Virus record (IMG/VR): IMGVR_UViG_3300000116_000087
Coordinates: 12,091 to 34,109 of that record
From: a virus
Reading direction: 5' to 3' (one strand)
DNA: 22,019 nucleotides
Within the stretch, counting starts at the first letter, position 1. Every line of letters starts with the position of its first letter. The position numbers were made by a program, and so were the translations under genes. Under the pieces are notes generated by a model, which saw nothing but the letters and a program-made list of their open reading frames with translations, searched no databases and was not told where the DNA came from. This document shows, in pieces, positions 1 to 21,116 of this stretch.

Positions 1-2112
1 GTGACCGTCATTTGCAGACACATGCAAGGTAGAGCTAGGGCTACTAGTCCCCAGACCTAAGCGGCCACTGGAGTCTAGGCGCATCCGCTCATAACTGGTA
101 ATGTCGCCAGTGAGATTTCCTGACGCATTAACAAAGAACTTGAGCGTAGATGCGCCGCTTGTTCCAGCAGTTGCTGAGATTGCAGCAGGAGCATAATTGT
201 TATCGCTTCCGTATGGAGCAAAGTAAATGGTCGCCCTATTGGCGGTGCTATTTCCTGCAATCGGCGTGGCGACCGAAAACTGGCTGTTAGCCCAGGTAAT
301 TGCGGTGGCGTCTGAAATGTTTGATGCAACGTGGAGGGTTGCTTGCTGACTTGACTCGCCTATGCCAATCTTTCCACTTGCGTTGACAAACAACCGCCCA
401 GTGCCATTAGTCGAGATGGCTACTTGGTTCGCTCCAGGTGAATAAACACCCGTATCGGTATCATCAATAAAAGAAATGGAAGGTGCAGCTTGTGTACCGG
501 AAGCAAACAATCCTGTGCTTAAAATTAAACCGCTTATTTCAAGATCTGTGAAAGAACCTGTTACAAAAATTCCACTAGTTGCTTGAATCGTATCTCCAGT
601 AATACTTGTACCCGAAACGTAGGTATATACACCGCTCGTTCCTGAGATTAAATCTCCGGTAATGGTGGCTCCAGATAAGTAAGTGTAGACGCCGCTAGTG
701 CCTGAGACTAAACCGCTTATTTCAAGATCTGTGAAAGAACCTGTTACAAAAATTCCACTAGTTGCTTGAATCGTATCTCCAGTAATACTTGTACCCGAAA
801 CGTAGGTATATACACCGCTCGTTCCTGAGATTAAATCTCCGGTAATGGTGGCTCCAGATAAGTAAGTGTAGACGCCTGAATTTGCTTGAACTAAATTCCC
901 ATTGATTGTCGAGCCGGAAATAATTCCTGAACTTACAATATTTTCGATAAATCCAGTTTGTTCAATAATTAAATTTGATTCGCCTGTTATATTTCCTACG
1001 ACCCTTAGATTTCCACTGATTACTTGATTTTCAATAACCGTGAAATTTCCACTAATTGTTTGATCTCCTTGGAAAGTCATGTTGACAGCGGTTAAGTCTT
1101 GAAAGACTCCCGTCTCAACATCCATACGGTTTGATTGAATATTAGTGCCGGTGATATTAGTAAATACTCCGGAAGTTCCGGAAATATTTGTAAACACTCC
1201 CGACACACCTGTGACTACAGTTGCTGAAACTGCATCTCCCGTGATTGTCGCACCTGAAAGGTGTGCAAATTGTCCCCCTGCTCCTGAAATATTATTTCCT
1301 GTAATGGTTGCTCCTGAAACGTGAGCATATACTCCACTAGTTACCGAAATTAAATCGCCAGTAATAGTTGTGCCTGATACATATGTAAAGATACCACTTG
1401 TGCCATAAATGGAATTTCCAGTAATAGTGTTGCCAGTTATTGTTCCTGTTATATAAGCACCTGACGCAGTTAAAAGTCCGCTTACACCAAGAGCACCACT
1501 TACTGTAAGTGCATCAGTGACAGTAACTCCACTTAACGTAACACTTTGCGCTGTTAAAGTTCCAAATTCGCCAGAGATTCCTGTAACAGTTCCGCCGCTA
1601 ATATAAGCTGCTGTAAAATTAGAAGTTGCAAAATTTAAAGCATTAATTGTATCACCTGTTATAACTGCTCCTGAAAAAAAAGAAGTTACAACACCTGTTG
1701 AATAAGTGAAGGTTGTGCCAGTAAGGGTTACAATTGTGCCAATCTGAATTTCAGATTGGTTAAAAGACGAAGTATTACCTGAAACAATACCTCCACTAAT
1801 AGTTCCGGAAACAATTGCATCATCCTGTACAGTCAGGCCAGAAACGGTGGCAGCATGGGTGACTGTAATTCCAGATGTAGTAGTTAACCCACTTATTGTT
1901 GCGTTGCCGCCAACAATAATATCTCCTGAAAATGTGTTGCCACTAGTATTCTGGAAGTACTGATCCAGATAAACGACTAACTCATCAAATTGAAATTTCT
2001 TATTACGTAAAGAAGGATCTGCTTCGTTAACAGCTACGACTGTAAGCAGATCCTCATCAACAATAGAGCCACCCTCAATACTGGGCATCTCCGTAATTTT
2101 TCTATTAGCCAC
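1..2112 (-). CDS. Tail fibre / adhesin-like protein, 3' end beyond the window
   Basis: Triplet-by-triplet reading shows an uninterrupted frame of 704 codons leaving the left edge, so the C-terminus is missing. I chose GTG 2112 (MANRKITEMPSIEGG), because short MANxKIT-type openings are common in phage fibres. ATG 2088 is an in-frame alternative, but a GGAG abuts it with no spacing. Residues 1 to about 55 form a non-repetitive, probably virion-attaching head (DEDLLTVVAVNEADPSLRNK). Then come many Ser/Gly/Thr-rich repeats of the type SGTxITGDxI and TSGVYTYxSG, typical of beta-structured trimeric fibre shafts. The distal part has IDDTDTGVYSPG, GRLFVNASGKIGIGESS and RLGLGTSSPSSTLHV, motifs common in receptor-binding fibre tips. 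The role, host recognition, is inferred from this architecture. A perfect 168-bp DNA duplication lies inside it. Confidence 0.85.
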   Translation of the reverse strand, partial: MANRKITEMPSIEGGSIVDEDLLTVVAVNEADPSLRNKKFQFDELVVYLDQYFQNTSGNTFSGDIIVGGNATISGLTTTSGITVTHAATVSGLTVQDDAIVSGTISGGIVSGNTSSFNQSEIQIGTIVTLTGTTFTYSTGVVTSFFSGAVITGDTINALNFATSNFTAAYISGGTVTGISGEFGTLTAQSVTLSGVTVTDALTVSGALGVSGLLTASGAYITGTITGNTITGNSIYGTSGIFTYVSGTTITGDLISVTSGVYAHVSGATITGNNISGAGGQFAHLSGATITGDAVSATVVTGVSGVFTNISGTSGVFTNITGTNIQSNRMDVETGVFQDLTAVNMTFQGDQTISGNFTVIENQVISGNLRVVGNITGESNLIIEQTGFIENIVSSGIISGSTINGNLVQANSGVYTYLSGATITGDLISGTSGVYTYVSGTSITGDTIQATSGIFVTGSFTDLEISGLVSGTSGVYTYLSGATITGDLISGTSGVYTYVSGTSITGDTIQATSGIFVTGSFTDLEISGLILSTGLFASGTQAAPSISFIDDTDTGVYSPGANQVAISTNGTGRLFVNASGKIGIGESSQQATLHVASNISDATAITWANSQFSVATPIAGNSTANRATIYFAPYGSDNNYAPAAISATAGTSGASTLKFFVNASGNLTGDITSYERMRLDSSGRLGLGTSSPSSTLHVSANDGH
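526..876. repeat. Perfect 168-bp direct duplication inside the tail-fibre gene
   Basis: Positions 526-693 and 709-876 are identical by eye over 168 bp and are offset by 183 bp, exactly 61 codons, so the reading frame is kept. The copies encode two turns of the fibre-shaft repeat (SGVYTYLSGATITGD and SGVYTYVSGTSITGD). The other shaft repeats in this gene are diverged at DNA level, so this looks like a recent in-frame duplication that lengthened the fibre. Confidence 0.9.
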
Positions 2113-7727: not shown

Positions 7728-10589
7728 TTAGAATCCGAAACCTGGTAAACCACCAAAGCCACCGCCTCCTCCTCCTAATAAATCTCCTCCGAAGTCGGAG
7801 GTGAAATCATCTAAGAAGTTTTGACCTGAAGTTGATTTCTTAGTTTTAATTGTAGTATTATTACCAAAATCTGCAAAACTATTAGGTGATTGTATCGAAG
7901 GTGTATCAAGAAAACTTCCGATAGAACTCAAGGCCGCTTCTGGACTTGAAGTATTTAAACCTCCTAATATGTCGAAATCTCCAAATTCAGCCTTTACTTC
8001 TTCTTTGCTTTGCCCTGGGAAAAAAGTATCATAAAACTCATTCTCTGTTCCTTTAAAACCTGCTTGTTGAAATATACCAAATAGACCTGCTCCTTCTCGT
8101 CCGCTTTCTTTATCTATTTCCCTTTCAATATAATCCACTCCAAGTGTTTCTTGACTAATTTCTTCACCTGCCTCTGCAAGTGCTTTAATCCTTTCTCTTA
8201 AAGTAGCAGCATCTTGACCTTGAATCGTACTGATAAGAATATTTTTAACTTCATCTAATTCTCCTTCTCCTCCTACAAGTCCGAGTTGCCTTCCAATTTC
8301 AGTGTTAGGGCCAACACCTGCATTATCTAAAACACCTTCAGCAAATTCATCGGGTGAAATAAAATTACCAAAGACACCGCCGCCTAGTACATCGCGTTCG
8401 TCAAGAAGACTAGGTATAAGCTCAAAATTTTTATACCTTTCAATACGATCCGGATCAATTGGATTATCAAAAGCAGCAAAGGTAATTGGAGCCCCGTCTA
8501 ATAAAATTTCATTTCCATCAATATCCCTTCCGCCTCTGGTAATGTCGTATAAAGTTCTTGCAAAAGGCTCCTTTGGAATATCGTAAATTAAATTACCTTT
8601 ATTGTCTTCAAAAGGTTGAGGGACAATACCTCGCACAAGAAGAGCATTAAGGTATTTAGGATCGCCTGACTTAGCCCGTTCAAATTGTTCTTTAAAAAAG
8701 TTTTTTTGAAACTCTAGCTTTCTTTCGTATCTTGAAGAATCGGCTGCTACTTGCTCTTTAACTGGACGATCAAAAAATGGATTTTCAAAAAATCTTGCAT
8801 CAAAATTTGCATCTAATCCATCTACTGGCTTTAAGGCATCTAAAAAAGTTTTAGTCTGATCCAATGCTAAAACCTGCAAAGCATTTTTAGTAGACTGCGT
8901 CTGAAACGGAGTTTGTAGTTCTTCATCAACATCGATAAAATTTATAAACTCATTGATTGATTTAGACGCGTTAAATCTTGGGCGTAGATAATCATTAATA
9001 AAATCACGAGCAAATTGAGAATCAATACCTTTGTAATTAAAATCAGGGTTATTTGGATTGTCTATAGCCTTAATTTCATTATCTATTTTTTTAATACGGT
9101 CAAACTTATCTATTTTTTTTCCCCCAGGAACAAATTCTCTACCTGATATAGTAAATAAAATATCTCTGCCGCCAGGTAGTTCTTTTAAATACTCCACTAG
9201 GTCATCTGTTTTCTCAAAGCCAGTTTCTCTCAAAAACTCTCTGGTAAATTCACCAGAATCTTTATCAAAAACTTCGCCTTTTTTTTCTAAGGCTTGTGAT
9301 CTAAACTCTTTTTTACTTCCATTTTTCGCATAAAAAGCTCTACCGAAATCAGCTTTTGATACTTGGCGGCCGTTTGCATTTGCTGATGAACCGAAGAAAC
9401 CTTGGTTGTTTGTTTTACTTACTACTTCTTCATAGGCTTCTAAAACTTTAGGATTACTCTCTACATAAGCAATATAATCTTCTGGTTTTGGTTGAGCATT
9501 TTCTAAAATATCTTTTTCTAACTCAAGATCTGCGAATTTTTTTTCATAATCTTTTGCGTATTTTTCAATCAGATCTTTTTCAAAAAAGTTTTGCCAATTA
9601 ACGATAGTGCTATTACCACCAAATTGTCCTAGAGCCCCTCCTAATGTTTTACTGATTTCATCTCTTACACCGGTTGGTAATAATCCTCCGGCATCGCCCA
9701 ACAAGTCATTTGCTGCGTTACTTCCAAAATTACTAAATTGAGAACCTAATAAATTATTTGTTATATCAAATTGCTGTTCTTCTCTTTTTGCACGCTCCAG
9801 TCTATTAATAGTAGTTCGTAAAACATCTTCTGAAAGCCGACCAAATTGTTTAGTTTGTAATAGACCTTCTTCACCTAGTGCCGTAGTTACACTGTCTTCA
9901 GCCAATTCGTCTTTTTTATCAGCTCTAAACAGATTAATTGTTTGTTGAGTAACGGCAGGACCACCTTCAAAACCTAGCGGGTTGTCACCAACAAATTTTC
10001 CTTTACTTGCAAAAGCATTTGGCTCGCGATTTTGCGTAGCTCCATTGAATTGATAATCTCCGGCAGCAAACGTGTTGATATCTGGGAAAGTACCCAGGAT
10101 ATCTAAATTACCTTCTTCAACTGCTCGTTCATATTCAGCTTTGACTTCTGGATACTTTTCTAAATAAAATACAGGGTCAAAAAAATTGTCGGCTGAAACA
10201 GGTCCTGATGTAAGAGATACAGGCGAGTATCCAGGAACTTGTCTTATGTCAAAAGGCTTGACAACAAACTCTTTATAAAAGTTATCATAAGATTTAAGCA
10301 ATGCATCTTTCTTTCCGTCAGATATTTTTAGATTATTAAGTAAAAAATTCTTTTTAGTAAGGTATTGATTTTGGGTATTTAAAGAAGTTCTAGCTTCTTG
10401 TACAACAAGATCTATCGCCGCATTAATTCTTCTTGCTACATTTAATTGTTTACCAGAATAATCGTTTTCATTAAGCCTATTAACAATAAATTTATCTTTT
10501 TTTGCATTGTACCTAAAAATCTCATCTGGCAGTTTTGCCTGATTCATTCCTCCCGTCTGTGTTTCTGGCTGTGTCTGTGTGCTATTCAT
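7728..10589 (-). CDS. Large structural-type protein, 953 residues
   Basis: The longest complete gene in the window, starting at ATG 10589 (MNSTQTQPETQTGG). It is rich in Phe, Asn, Asp and Glu with long charged helical stretches, and ends in a Gly-rich tail (LLGGGGGGFGGLPGFGF). Near residue 135 there is FFDPVFYLEKYPEVKAEYE, resembling the FDxxYYLxxNPDV repeat found in some secreted cyanobacterial and phage tail proteins. No enzymatic motif, membrane helix or signal peptide was seen. Large size, low Cys and position next to virion genes suggest a tail or internal virion component, but I do not recognise the family. Strongly AT-rich compared with the capsid genes. Confidence 0.7.
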   Translation of the reverse strand: MNSTQTQPETQTGGMNQAKLPDEIFRYNAKKDKFIVNRLNENDYSGKQLNVARRINAAIDLVVQEARTSLNTQNQYLTKKNFLLNNLKISDGKKDALLKSYDNFYKEFVVKPFDIRQVPGYSPVSLTSGPVSADNFFDPVFYLEKYPEVKAEYERAVEEGNLDILGTFPDINTFAAGDYQFNGATQNREPNAFASKGKFVGDNPLGFEGGPAVTQQTINLFRADKKDELAEDSVTTALGEEGLLQTKQFGRLSEDVLRTTINRLERAKREEQQFDITNNLLGSQFSNFGSNAANDLLGDAGGLLPTGVRDEISKTLGGALGQFGGNSTIVNWQNFFEKDLIEKYAKDYEKKFADLELEKDILENAQPKPEDYIAYVESNPKVLEAYEEVVSKTNNQGFFGSSANANGRQVSKADFGRAFYAKNGSKKEFRSQALEKKGEVFDKDSGEFTREFLRETGFEKTDDLVEYLKELPGGRDILFTISGREFVPGGKKIDKFDRIKKIDNEIKAIDNPNNPDFNYKGIDSQFARDFINDYLRPRFNASKSINEFINFIDVDEELQTPFQTQSTKNALQVLALDQTKTFLDALKPVDGLDANFDARFFENPFFDRPVKEQVAADSSRYERKLEFQKNFFKEQFERAKSGDPKYLNALLVRGIVPQPFEDNKGNLIYDIPKEPFARTLYDITRGGRDIDGNEILLDGAPITFAAFDNPIDPDRIERYKNFELIPSLLDERDVLGGGVFGNFISPDEFAEGVLDNAGVGPNTEIGRQLGLVGGEGELDEVKNILISTIQGQDAATLRERIKALAEAGEEISQETLGVDYIEREIDKESGREGAGLFGIFQQAGFKGTENEFYDTFFPGQSKEEVKAEFGDFDILGGLNTSSPEAALSSIGSFLDTPSIQSPNSFADFGNNTTIKTKKSTSGQNFLDDFTSDFGGDLLGGGGGGFGGLPGFGF

Positions 10590-10597
10590 TAAAAAAA

Positions 10598-10963
10598 CTA
10601 AGCTATTTTTAATTCTATAGGATGGTTTATAAGGGAATAAATGTCAATAGTCTCTTGGTTTACCCATCTTTTAATTTCAACCAAACGTTCCTTACAAAAA
10701 AATTCTTGCTTTGTATACCACTGTTCCATATCATGACTGGCCTTGTTAGAATTACACCTTTGACAAGAAGGAAGTAAATTGCAACGACTGCTGGGACCAG
10801 ACTTATATCGTGGGATTATGTGGTCAAGAGAAGTTGCGGAGGCACCGCAGTAAGCACATTTGTTATCCCACGCATCATATATTGATTCTCTAAAACGTCT
10901 CTTCGCTCGTTTAGGTGTTAACTCAATGAGAAGGGCAAGTGGATCCTGTTCATTGTTAAACAT
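10598..10963 (-). CDS. HNH endonuclease, CxxC zinc type
   Basis: A 121-residue HNH nuclease (PF01844 type). The core runs from about residue 28 to 85: YDAWDNKCAYCGASATSLDH has the first Cys pair and the catalytic His, IIPRYKSGPSSRCNLLPSC holds the Asn region, and CQRCNSNK has the second Cys pair. The two CxxC pairs would bind a structural zinc; DH is the metal/catalytic pair. Free-standing HNH genes of this kind act in phages as homing endonucleases or assist terminase. No intron core was seen around it. ATG 10963 follows AAGAGGC at close spacing. It ends eight bases before the 953-residue gene and diverges from the gene at 11072. Confidence 0.85.
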   Translation of the reverse strand: MFNNEQDPLALLIELTPKRAKRRFRESIYDAWDNKCAYCGASATSLDHIIPRYKSGPSSRCNLLPSCQRCNSNKASHDMEQWYTKQEFFCKERLVEIKRWVNQETIDIYSLINHPIELKIA

Positions 10964-19069: not shown

Positions 19070-20221
19070 TCAAATAGTGCCGTCGTCTTGAACGAAGCTA
19101 AATGCGGTTGTGATGAAGTCCTTATTAAGAATTTCGAAACCAGCATACAGTTGCCAAATCAGAATAATGAAGCGGCTGAAGTCATCATTATTGTTGATGA
19201 GCACCTGGGCGTTAGGGCCACCGATGCCAACACCGATTGACTGAGGACCGAAGAAGTAGCCCTGAGCGACTTCCTTGGAAGCATAGCTGCTGCCGCCGTC
19301 AAAAGACGTATTGACATTCTTGTTGGGGAAGTTGGTGGACTCGTAGAACTTCACACCTTCAAACTGAACGCCAGTAGGCATAACAGGCTCACCAGCCAAG
19401 AAGTAGGCTTGGCCTGCCTGAGGACCCATGTAGAAGCTGGCGTTGTTAGGCATCATGGGGTTGCCCATGTACATGCCTTGACCAGGATTACCGGCGTAAC
19501 GAGCGATCTCACGGAAGTCATCGTCACGACGCAGGTGCATCATGAAGGTGGGATCGCAAATACAACGATACAGACCGTCAGCAAAGGTAGGTACGTTGCG
19601 CTTACGCATCTGCTTAACAACGTTCAGCAGGTCAGTACGCACGGAGAATTGCTGAACCTGAGCTTCATACTCAGCAGTGGTGTAAGAGATACGGTTTTGA
19701 CTGTCTTTCTCTTTAGCGCCTGCAAAATAGTAACCGCCGATGTCATCGGATGCAGCTCCATTAGCCTCAGCTTTGGCCATTTCGTCAATGAAGACGCGGT
19801 CGCGCCAACGACGATAGTCGTCCAGCAGAGTCAGAGAACCGATGCTCTGGTGGAACATGTTCAAGTTGCCGGTGTCGAGCAGCAGACGCTGAGCGGTAAC
19901 CAGAGTCTCACGGGCAATTTTAAAGGTTGAAGGCTGGGTGGGATCGCCAGGATCAGCAGGACCGGTGTACTCTTTCAGCACAACAAGCACCTTCTCCTTG
20001 GTGATGTTGCGGCTGTTAGCAGTACCGATGGTCTGATCGGAGACGCGCTCACGGCTCTCCTTGGTTCCAGGGGTTCCCCAGAACTTGTAGCGATCAAGTT
20101 GCACCGTCTGGCCGGGCTGGCGAGTGAAGTCATGGACGACCACAGGCTCAGCAGCCATCTCGCAAATGTAAGCGGGGTGAGGGCGATAAAGCTCCGCACC
20201 TAGCAGTTTTGGAAAATCGTT
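19070..20221 (-). CDS. Major capsid protein, exon 2 of a split gene
   Basis: Forms the icosahedral shell. The layout resembles N4-gp56-like capsid proteins: a Q-x-V-x-L-D-R-Y strand (PGQTVQLDRYKFWGTPGT), then GTANSRNITKEKVLVVLKEY, helix RRWRDRVFIDEMAKAEANG, and FIILIWQLYAGFEILNKDFI near the end. ATG 20158 has no Shine-Dalgarno, and the frame continues upstream as NDFPKLLGAELYR, then PHPAYICEMAAEP, back to the predicted 3' splice site at 20221/20222. Exon 2 codes for 383 residues; exon 1 (21045-21056) adds MFID, giving 387. The annotation as capsid protein is firm by size, composition and position; the family name is less so. Confidence 0.82.
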   Translation of the reverse strand, partial: NDFPKLLGAELYRPHPAYICEMAAEPVVVHDFTRQPGQTVQLDRYKFWGTPGTKESRERVSDQTIGTANSRNITKEKVLVVLKEYTGPADPGDPTQPSTFKIARETLVTAQRLLLDTGNLNMFHQSIGSLTLLDDYRRWRDRVFIDEMAKAEANGAASDDIGGYYFAGAKEKDSQNRISYTTAEYEAQVQQFSVRTDLLNVVKQMRKRNVPTFADGLYRCICDPTFMMHLRRDDDFREIARYAGNPGQGMYMGNPMMPNNASFYMGPQAGQAYFLAGEPVMPTGVQFEGVKFYESTNFPNKNVNTSFDGGSSYASKEVAQGYFFGPQSIGVGIGGPNAQVLINNNDDFSRFIILIWQLYAGFEILNKDFITTAFSFVQDDGTI

Positions 20222-21044
20222 CTCCTGGTCTCCAATTTCTTGAAGGGGTGGACCATCTCTTCATCCCAGAGGGATGCCGGACGCTGTATCTGGTATTACG
20301 TTACAAGATCGTGTAACACCCAGTGGCCTCTGCACGTTCCAATCACGGGCTTGATTGGCTTCGCTCAGGATTACCCTCGTCTTTACGTTAGGGCTTCCCT
20401 GAATTCATCCAGTTTTCACTTAACGATTGCTCGCTAAGGTGACAACGCTTGAGAAGTTCAGGTGAGGTAAAATTTGGAAACTTGTTCATAAACATCATGA
20501 ATCCAAAATTAGTCTCAGGATTTGGTAATCTCTACTTAACTGAATCCGGAAGAGCTTTTGAAAAACACTTGGACGATAATGACCAGGAGTATTTTGAAGA
20601 ACTTCCTATACAACACACTAGTAAGTATGATCGTGTCTCAATCCTTGTTGACGGTAAAAGAAAAAGATTTAATTTACACGTCTTAATGGCTGTTGCTTTC
20701 TTGGATTTAGATTTGCGTTCACATGGAACACACAACTTTTCTTTGCAAGTTAATCATATAGATAACAACAAAAGAAATAACAATCTAAATAATTTAGAGA
20801 TTGCTACTAAACAAGAAAACCTTATAAGAAGCTGGACTGAAAACAATCAAATTAACAATGGTTTTGCAAGTAAAGGAAAGGCGAAAACATCACTCAGGAA
20901 ATTTTCTAAAGAAGATGTGAAACAAATTAAATCTTTAAAAGAAGCAGGTCTTTCATACAGAAAGATTGCTGAAAAATTTAATTGTAATCACGGTGCTATT
21001 TACCAAATGCTGAAAGGTAATACCTACCAGGATCTGAACTAGCT
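20222..21044 (-). ncRNA. Group I (IA-like) self-splicing intron in the capsid gene
   Basis: On the minus strand the core can be drawn in order (plus coordinates). P1: exon TGAT plus AGC (21042-21048) with GTTGTCA (20440-20446), U-G at the splice site. P2: eight pairs capped by a GCAA tetraloop (20419-20438). P3: CTGGATG (20406-20412) with CGTCCGG (20277-20283). P4: TTCAGG (20398-20403) with CCTGAG (20364-20369). P5: CCCT/AGGG (20390-20393, 20374-20377). P6a: CCAATCA/TGATTGG (20339-20358). P7: GGCCA (20324-20328) with TGGTCC (20250-20255). P7.1 hairpin (20300-20317), P8 CATCCC/GGGATG (20262-20276), J8/7 AAGAGA. P10: exon-2 AACG with CGTT (20444-20447). The last intron base is G. Removal joins GAT to AAC in frame. 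Confidence 0.87.
20497..21042 (+). CDS. HNH homing endonuclease encoded antisense to its intron
   Basis: 181 residues from ATG 20497 (MNPKLVSGFGNLYLTESGRA); the frame opens at TTG 20449, but that would overlap the intron's guide sequence. Residues 84-110 carry the HNH pattern: LQVNHIDNNKRNNNLNNLEI with His87 and Asn99, then ATKQEN with Asn108. The N-terminal part (about 8-65) resembles a NUMOD4-like strand region. Residues about 136-178 hold a C-terminal HTH, FSKEDVKQIKSLKEAGLSYR then KIAEKFNCNHGAIYQMLKG, for DNA recognition. It is AT-rich, unlike the capsid exons, and its stop lies two bases from the intron's 5' end, so it fills the P1 loop on the opposite strand. It presumably cuts intronless capsid genes near the exon junction. 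Confidence 0.85.
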   Translation: MNPKLVSGFGNLYLTESGRAFEKHLDDNDQEYFEELPIQHTSKYDRVSILVDGKRKRFNLHVLMAVAFLDLDLRSHGTHNFSLQVNHIDNNKRNNNLNNLEIATKQENLIRSWTENNQINNGFASKGKAKTSLRKFSKEDVKQIKSLKEAGLSYRKIAEKFNCNHGAIYQMLKGNTYQDLN

Positions 21045-21056
21045 ATCAATGAACAC
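21045..21056 (-). CDS. Major capsid protein, exon 1 (MFID)
   Basis: GTG TTC ATT GAT, preceded at ten bases by GGAGG (21067-21071). Without splicing, the frame stops one codon later (AGC TAG). The final T pairs with G in P1, as group I introns require, and splicing joins GAT to AAC in phase. Only four codons, so this rests on the intron model rather than on protein similarity; protein N-terminal data would settle it. Confidence 0.72.
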
Positions 21057-21066
21057 TTTGGTTTAT

Positions 21067-21116
21067 CCTCCAGTGTCAGGTTTATCGGGTGAAAGATAAA
21101 GCCAAACGGCTTATCT
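21067..21116 (-). promoter_or_regulatory. Capsid leader: GGAGG site and upstream hairpin
   Basis: The leader carries a strong Shine-Dalgarno GGAGG (21067-21071) and, upstream, a hairpin AGATAAGCC - GTTT - GGCTTTATCT (21094-21116) with one bulged base. The hairpin may protect the 5' end of the capsid message. No convincing promoter boxes were seen between it and the terminator. Confidence 0.5.

Follow-up and report, generated by a model that had tools for sequence, protein, structure and literature searches.

The window analyzed here, a 22,019-nucleotide stretch of a virus contig (IMG/VR record IMGVR_UViG_3300000116_000087), contains, on its minus strand, a gene for the major capsid protein (MCP) that is split after codon 4 by a group IA intron and, on the plus strand, within the confines of this intron, a gene for a predicted HNH homing endonuclease (Table 1). 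The intron is numbered from position 21044 (nucleotide 1) to the final G at 20222; on the minus strand, the segment 20461-20229 matches the Rfam model RF00028 with a score of 84.5 bits, compared to the gathering score of 50. The capsid protein is 83% identical to that of Synechococcus phage S-EIV1, the closest named phage, in which the gene is intronless. In S-EIV1 and in about 60 of the best 80 IMG/VR capsid loci, the empty site, GTGTTCATTGAT followed directly by AACGAT or near variants of these sequences, is contiguous (the joined, intronless site reads GTGTTCATTGATAACGATTTTCC), and because of this contiguity in the intronless relatives, the limits of the intron are exact. An earlier note on this DNA, made from the sequence alone, had placed the ribozyme and the exons on the minus strand and had given the same intron ends; the Rfam match supports the former and the intronless relatives confirm the latter to the nucleotide. 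The alternative that was considered there, namely, a better 5' splice site beside P2 that would leave the nuclease gene outside the intron, fails because introns lacking the gene share the 5' splice site. As judged by sequence comparison, the intron family spans many uncultured relatives of S-EIV1, a freshwater cyanobacterial virus.

Table 1. Features of the split capsid gene, the intron and the antisense nuclease gene (window coordinates)
Feature	Position	Strand	Basis
Group IA intron, 823 nt	20222..21044	-	RF00028 score, empty sites in relatives
MCP exon 1, GTG TTC ATT GAT (start + 3 codons)	21045..21056	-	sequence; conserved in intronless relatives
Shine-Dalgarno sequence of MCP, GGAGG	21067-21071	-	sequence
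MCP exon 2, major head protein	19070..20221	-	PHROG 1357, E 5e-14
Internal guide GUCA, pairs with exon 1 bases -4 to -1 (21048-21045), forming P1	20440..20443	-	covariation 72/72
P10 strand CGUU, pairs with exon 2 AACG (20221-20218)	20444..20447	-	98% of cells paired, one compensatory change
P1 extension, 3' strand CUGAAC	20456..20461	-	covariation with 5' strand, in introns with and without the gene
P1 extension, 5' strand GUUCAG	21034..21039	-	covariation; plus strand = last two nuclease codons, CTG AAC
Ribozyme core P2-P9 with P7.1/P7.2, group IA type	20229..20443	-	covariation
Candidate -10 element TAAAAT of nuclease promoter	20468..20473	+	comparative, 29 nt before start
Inverted repeat TGTT-CATA-AACA, contains the guide of the earlier note	20483..20494	+	adjoins nuclease start; possible operator or 5' hairpin
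Predicted HNH homing endonuclease gene, ATG, 181 codons + TAG	20497..21042	+	HNH_3, phrog_59, I-HmuI likeness
CTAG, double stop	21039..21042	both	nuclease TAG 21040-21042 (+); in-frame TAG, intron nt 4-6 (-)

A search with a ribozyme core pattern yielded more than 100 related introns, 73 of which are distinct, complete and located at the same capsid site. Across 37 distinct core sequences, 94.4% of the cells in the proposed helices hold standard pairs, compared to 31 to 40% with slid partners, and 28 pairs show compensatory (two-sided) changes; no shuffle attained the observed values of pairing or compensation. P3 and P7 are paired in 100% of the cells, with 3 and 1 compensatory pairs, respectively, and form the pseudoknotted core typical of group I introns, accompanied by paired P4, P5, P6, P8 and P9, a terminal G and P10. 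The hairpins P7.1 and P7.2 are correctly placed between P7 and P3, hence the assignment to group IA; the pairing of only 70 to 77% of their cells reflects an alignment in which two forms of this stretch are not in register with each other.

The pairing of exon 1 with the guide includes a U.G wobble at the 5' splice site, between exon U(-1) and the G of GUCA, in each of 72 introns, and the exon and the guide covary perfectly in the same set, with ATTGAT facing GTCACC in 58 introns and ATCGAT facing GTCGCC in 14. These introns are related, so that the counts do not represent independent events: the pair between exon base -4 and the guide switched at least two times on the capsid tree, and two changes are all that this exon base requires. 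The alleles without the nuclease gene display the simple form of P1, in which UGAU (exon bases -4 to -1) pairs with a GUCA immediately 5' of the P2 hairpin; across the relatives, P10 is formed between the first bases of exon 2 and the 3 or 4 bases preceding the guide. An alternative guide, GUUG, was dropped in favor of GUCA because the fourth base of the guide changes in perfect step with exon base -4. The guide originally proposed, GUUUAUGAAC (minus strand, 20493-20484), pairs at 7 to 10 of its 10 positions in gene-bearing introns but mispairs in many relatives; we reject it because it does not track the exon changes and is missing from the gene-less introns, and the corrected position matters to anyone designing a splicing test. 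With the re-derived guide, the accompanying claim that the whole nuclease gene is inserted between the two halves of P1 holds, and the distance that P1 bridges, put at about 600 nt in the earlier note, is 601 nt from exon base -1 to the guide.

Between the splice site and the guide, P1 is extended by a second helix in which intron nucleotides 6-11 pair with a hexamer 15 to 18 nt before the guide. Five fully complementary versions of this extension (GUUCAG/CUGAAC, ACUCAG/CUGAGU, GCUCAG/CUGAGC, GCUUAG/CUAAGC and AUUCAG/CUGAAU) occur in introns both with and without the nuclease gene, and the compensatory changes preserve Leu-Asn or Leu-Ser at the C-terminus of the nuclease. It is covariation that supports this helix: unconstrained folding of the full-length intron RNA of the window did not recover it (probability 0.000) and missed it in several short gene-less relatives as well, that is, even short introns misfold in such predictions.

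The protein encoded opposite the intron matches Pfam HNH_3 (28.9 bits against a cut-off of 24.8) and phrog_59 (E 7e-24), and its C-terminal helix-turn-helix scores slightly under the cut-off for HTH_38. Among the solved relatives, I-HmuI is the best match both by sequence (E 1.3e-7) and by fold (E 6.9e-7, TM ~0.48, for a predicted model with pLDDT 81); by these comparisons, the protein is an I-HmuI-like HNH homing endonuclease with predicted cutting activity. Relatives have ATG (44 of 47) or GTG (3 of 47) at the position corresponding to 20497, which supports this start codon. Searches for relatives of the nuclease gave no match in named phage records and only distant ones in bacterial genomes, and no group I intron was detected near the closest relatives outside the family that were scanned (about 30% identical). 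As the earlier note had it, the gene ends on the plus strand two bases from the 5' end of the intron. The stop on the minus strand, two codons into the intron (AGC TAG), halts ribosomes that enter the unspliced intron from MCP exon 1; both stops of the CTAG are kept in all 58 gene-bearing introns.

These 58 are drawn from the 73 distinct MCP introns, and in every one of them the nuclease gene is antisense to the ribozyme and open throughout, with its stop codon at intron nucleotides 3-5. Among the loci found by the nuclease protein, 77 of 78 show the ribozyme core immediately ahead of the gene and on the other strand; the remaining one is cut off by the contig end. The layout is kept in L102, in which the nuclease is only about 45% identical, and the gene was never seen at the intron site without the intron. 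The nuclease genes evolve under purifying selection, with a median dN/dS of 0.10 and a maximum of 0.21 (1021 pairs; 47 genes without internal stops). An antisense frame that is open in 58 of 58 introns at a dN/dS of about 0.10 is conserved far beyond chance and, on this comparative evidence, the antisense layout is old and conserved in the intron family. The survey of related capsid introns thereby upholds the orientation reported in the earlier note and excludes an assembly inversion, given that many independent contigs agree.

The presence of the intron changes at least 9 times on well supported (starred) branches of the MCP tree (82 sequences, with L026 counted as empty although the contig end cuts through its intron). 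Near-identical capsid proteins differ in this respect, with the intron present in L046 and absent in L048, so that the distribution is that of a mobile intron, patchy among close relatives and confined to one exact site. The gene-less introns are 229 to 281 nt long (for example, L085, L091, L115, L118 and L088). Some of them retain the C-terminal codons of the nuclease as scars (ATCCTGGTA in L118 and L119, GTCCTGGTA in L107), whereas internal deletions are seen in L185 and L162; we therefore infer that the gene was lost by deletion whereas the P1 extension was retained. Judging from these alleles, the patchy loss of the gene with scars is the gain-decay-loss cycle of homing introns. L085 and L091 are short, regular introns (256-257 nt) with a clean P1 hairpin and a terminal GUG, not GAG, and would make good minimal ribozymes.

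Several other arrangements were encountered at and around these loci. A sister clade in which P1 is tiny (L135 and L176) has a 153-aa antisense gene that resembles phage HNH endonucleases; this gene lies immediately beyond the intron, on the 5' side of capsid exon 1 (-610 to -151 and -611 to -152 relative to the core, respectively), and is possibly a free-standing nuclease serving a gene-less intron. Two or three tandem group I introns occupy a single capsid gene in L282 (2064-2961) and L281 (2129-2739), and sense LAGLIDADG-like reading frames are found further downstream in the MCP gene of L088, L102, L117 and L177. The same ribozyme core motif also turns up in different genes or contexts away from the capsid site (L100, L116/L143, L126, L151 and L168); in L100 and L151, antisense nuclease-like genes lie just upstream of the split gene. 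Elsewhere in the window, a second, unrelated HNH gene (10598-10963, minus strand; phrog_2214, E 5e-26) is embedded among structural genes and probably encodes a free-standing homing nuclease, and a 23-base, 96% match to the nuclease gene (9997-10019, plus strand, the complement of 20857-20879) within a large virion-gene frame is probably due to chance.

Upstream of the nuclease gene, each of 48 distinct stretches has a TANNNT motif about 29 nt ahead of the start codon, compared to 53% of shuffles, and 41 of the 48 have the extended -10 form, TGnTAnnnT, compared to 6% of shuffles. The inner three bases of TANNNT vary among the relatives, and in the window the TG of the extended form is missing from the candidate element. 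This promoter-like stretch is absent from the fully gene-less introns displayed and is, by this comparison, linked to the nuclease gene. A standard sigma-70 scan detected no promoter in the region upstream of the nuclease, and no clear Shine-Dalgarno sequence precedes its start. The conserved motif suggests that the nuclease has its own promoter.

A phage precedent exists in the mycobacteriophage LittleE, in which MCP gene 14 contains a group I-like intron of about 819 bp that is spliced in vivo and carries an endonuclease gene on the bottom strand (PMC3706429); the sequence record (JF937101) confirms the opposite-strand location and describes an HNH protein, whereas the text likens it to a LAGLIDADG nuclease (PMC3706429). 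LittleE thus shares with the present family a phage MCP intron with an endonuclease gene on the opposite strand, but there the gene is 3' of the core (core at 559-762 and gene at 765-1298 of L437), rather than in P1, and the core is a weak Rfam match (30.7 bits). It is also a single case without comparative or promoter analysis, whereas the present family includes dozens of relatives. Antisense homing genes, for which an own promoter has been proposed, are also found in the Didymium rDNA introns Dir.S956-2 (I-DirII) and Dsq.L2066 (I-DsqI) (PMC9548176, PMC3073962). These slime mould introns resemble the present one in that the homing gene is antisense to a group I ribozyme but reside in eukaryotic nuclear rDNA and encode His-Cys nucleases; Dsq.L2066 belongs to group IE, with the gene in P9. 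The 3' peripheral placement of the gene, in the P9 region, that is seen in antisense homing gene introns is not found here, the gene being in P1. HNH nucleases in phage group IA introns are represented by I-HmuI of SPO1 and I-PfoP3I of the cyanophage Pf-WMP3 (group IA2), in which the host gene encodes DNA polymerase rather than MCP and the nuclease genes are sense-oriented. The td intron of T4, with I-TevI, is likewise a group IA intron in which the 3' coding end of the nuclease overlaps ribozyme helices and the promoter is regulated, but its gene is in the sense orientation and encodes a GIY-YIG nuclease, translation of which interferes with, and lowers, td splicing (PMC2988022).

The statement in the earlier note that intron endonucleases of phages are usually encoded in sense fits this literature and the few related introns, whereas LittleE and Didymium provide antisense precedents. 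Related introns in seven phage records were compared, a sample too small for a survey; Bas96 has an annotated sense endonuclease inside the intron, Muenster has an HNH gene downstream of the intron, and none of the seven has an antisense intron endonuclease. Two publications on group I introns of bacteria and phages (PMC3984707, PMC11878797) make no mention of antisense genes. As far as we could find, with most of the subscription literature not searchable, LittleE is the sole phage precedent, in one brief description; the present family follows the same principle with the gene in another place, P1, and a large family with apparent selection on the antisense gene and a fixed position is, to the same extent, reported here for the first time.

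By sequence comparison, this locus combines a group IA fold, exon-guide pairing, a P1 extension across the gene, and selection on the orientation and place of that gene, and we consider it highly likely that the MCP gene of this cyanophage contains a mobile group IA intron with its homing gene on the opposite strand, within the P1 loop. The MCP pre-mRNA would fold into the ribozyme and self-splice, with the P1 extension spanning the nuclease gene to bring the splice site and the guide into proximity. A promoter of its own, located on the ribozyme side and directed into the gene, would drive expression of the nuclease, which would nick or cut intronless MCP genes at GTTCATTGAT followed by AACGAT, with the insertion point between the two; repair would then copy the intron in, so that intronless capsid genes could be converted during mixed infections. 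Because the two are on opposite strands and the intron RNA never serves ribosomes as a message for the nuclease, nuclease expression should be unable to disturb ribozyme folding. This suggests a general benefit of the layout, whereby ribosomes translating the nuclease would never cross ribozyme RNA and the conflict known in bacteria and phages, where translation of a nuclease encoded in an intron can unfold the ribozyme and prevent splicing (PMC2988022), would be avoided without taking up additional space. MCP transcription and nuclease transcription are likely to interfere with one another, and the nuclease is therefore expected to be produced mainly before or outside strong MCP transcription.

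Why the gene is antisense is a separate question, and there is a real chance, although short of an even one, that the orientation is a neutral frozen accident, that is, a single capture into the P1 loop of a gene with its own promoter, the antisense RNA having no regulatory role. A single orientation family-wide is what one capture would produce, the closest outside relatives scanned are intronless, and the sense LAGLIDADG-like frames downstream in the same MCP genes imply that the antisense orientation is not required; nevertheless, retention of the layout down to 45% protein identity, along with the conserved promoter-like element, suggests that it is at least well adapted. Antisense RNA is a plausible built-in control of nuclease expression. 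Under an explicit version of such control, late MCP transcription would silence the nuclease via polymerase collision and base pairing between the MCP pre-mRNA and the nuclease mRNA, confining cutting to early infection. The opposite strands with full overlap, the promoter-like element upstream of the nuclease and the tight regulation known for T4 intron nucleases (PMC2988022) are all compatible with this scheme, but the T4 enzymes are restricted to middle or late times, the opposite timing (PMC2988022), and the excised intron RNA may be degraded quickly, so that we regard it as rather unlikely. Equally tentative is the broader proposal that the antisense position in P1 is an evolved switch, in which the nuclease would be made from its own promoter while the capsid operon is silent, and the onset of massive capsid transcription would both shut the nuclease off and free the ribozyme of translating ribosomes.

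The inverted repeat that adjoins the nuclease start has a stem of 4-5 bp in 36 of 36 distinct upstream stretches and is conserved, with different letters, in two clades. It could be an operator bound by the nuclease, which would explain the exon-like sequence at this place: in close relatives, GTTYATRAAC resembles the homing site GTTYATTGATAAC, and I-TevI represses itself at a look-alike of its homing site (PMC2988022). We nonetheless consider autorepression of this kind improbable, given that the resemblance is lost across most of the clade with the 176-aa protein (for example, GTTGTTTTTATACAAC) and that repeats this short are not rare by chance, about 33% of shuffles reaching at least 4 bp. 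Finally, a free-standing antisense homing gene that happened to come to lie beside P1 or within it, functionally tied neither to splicing nor to orientation, could be imagined from the outside relatives with about 30% identity that show no group I intron nearby among those scanned, from the antisense nuclease-like genes that adjoin other MCP introns (L135 and L176) and from segD beside T4 gene 23 (PMC2988022), but is very improbable, the covariation and the exact empty site having already largely disproved it, with the nuclease located between the splice site and the guide in 58 of 58 introns, with its last codons forming the P1 extension and its stop fixed, and never at the site without the intron.

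If the proposed switch is real, the antisense orientation of the homing gene in this mobile capsid intron would be a regulatory device that accomplishes what T4-type introns achieve with hairpins and repressors. The family also provides dozens of natural alleles at one site (with the gene, with a decayed gene, with a scar, and intronless) in an essential, highly expressed gene, and is therefore suited to direct tests of what antisense homing genes cost, when they are expressed and how they are regulated.
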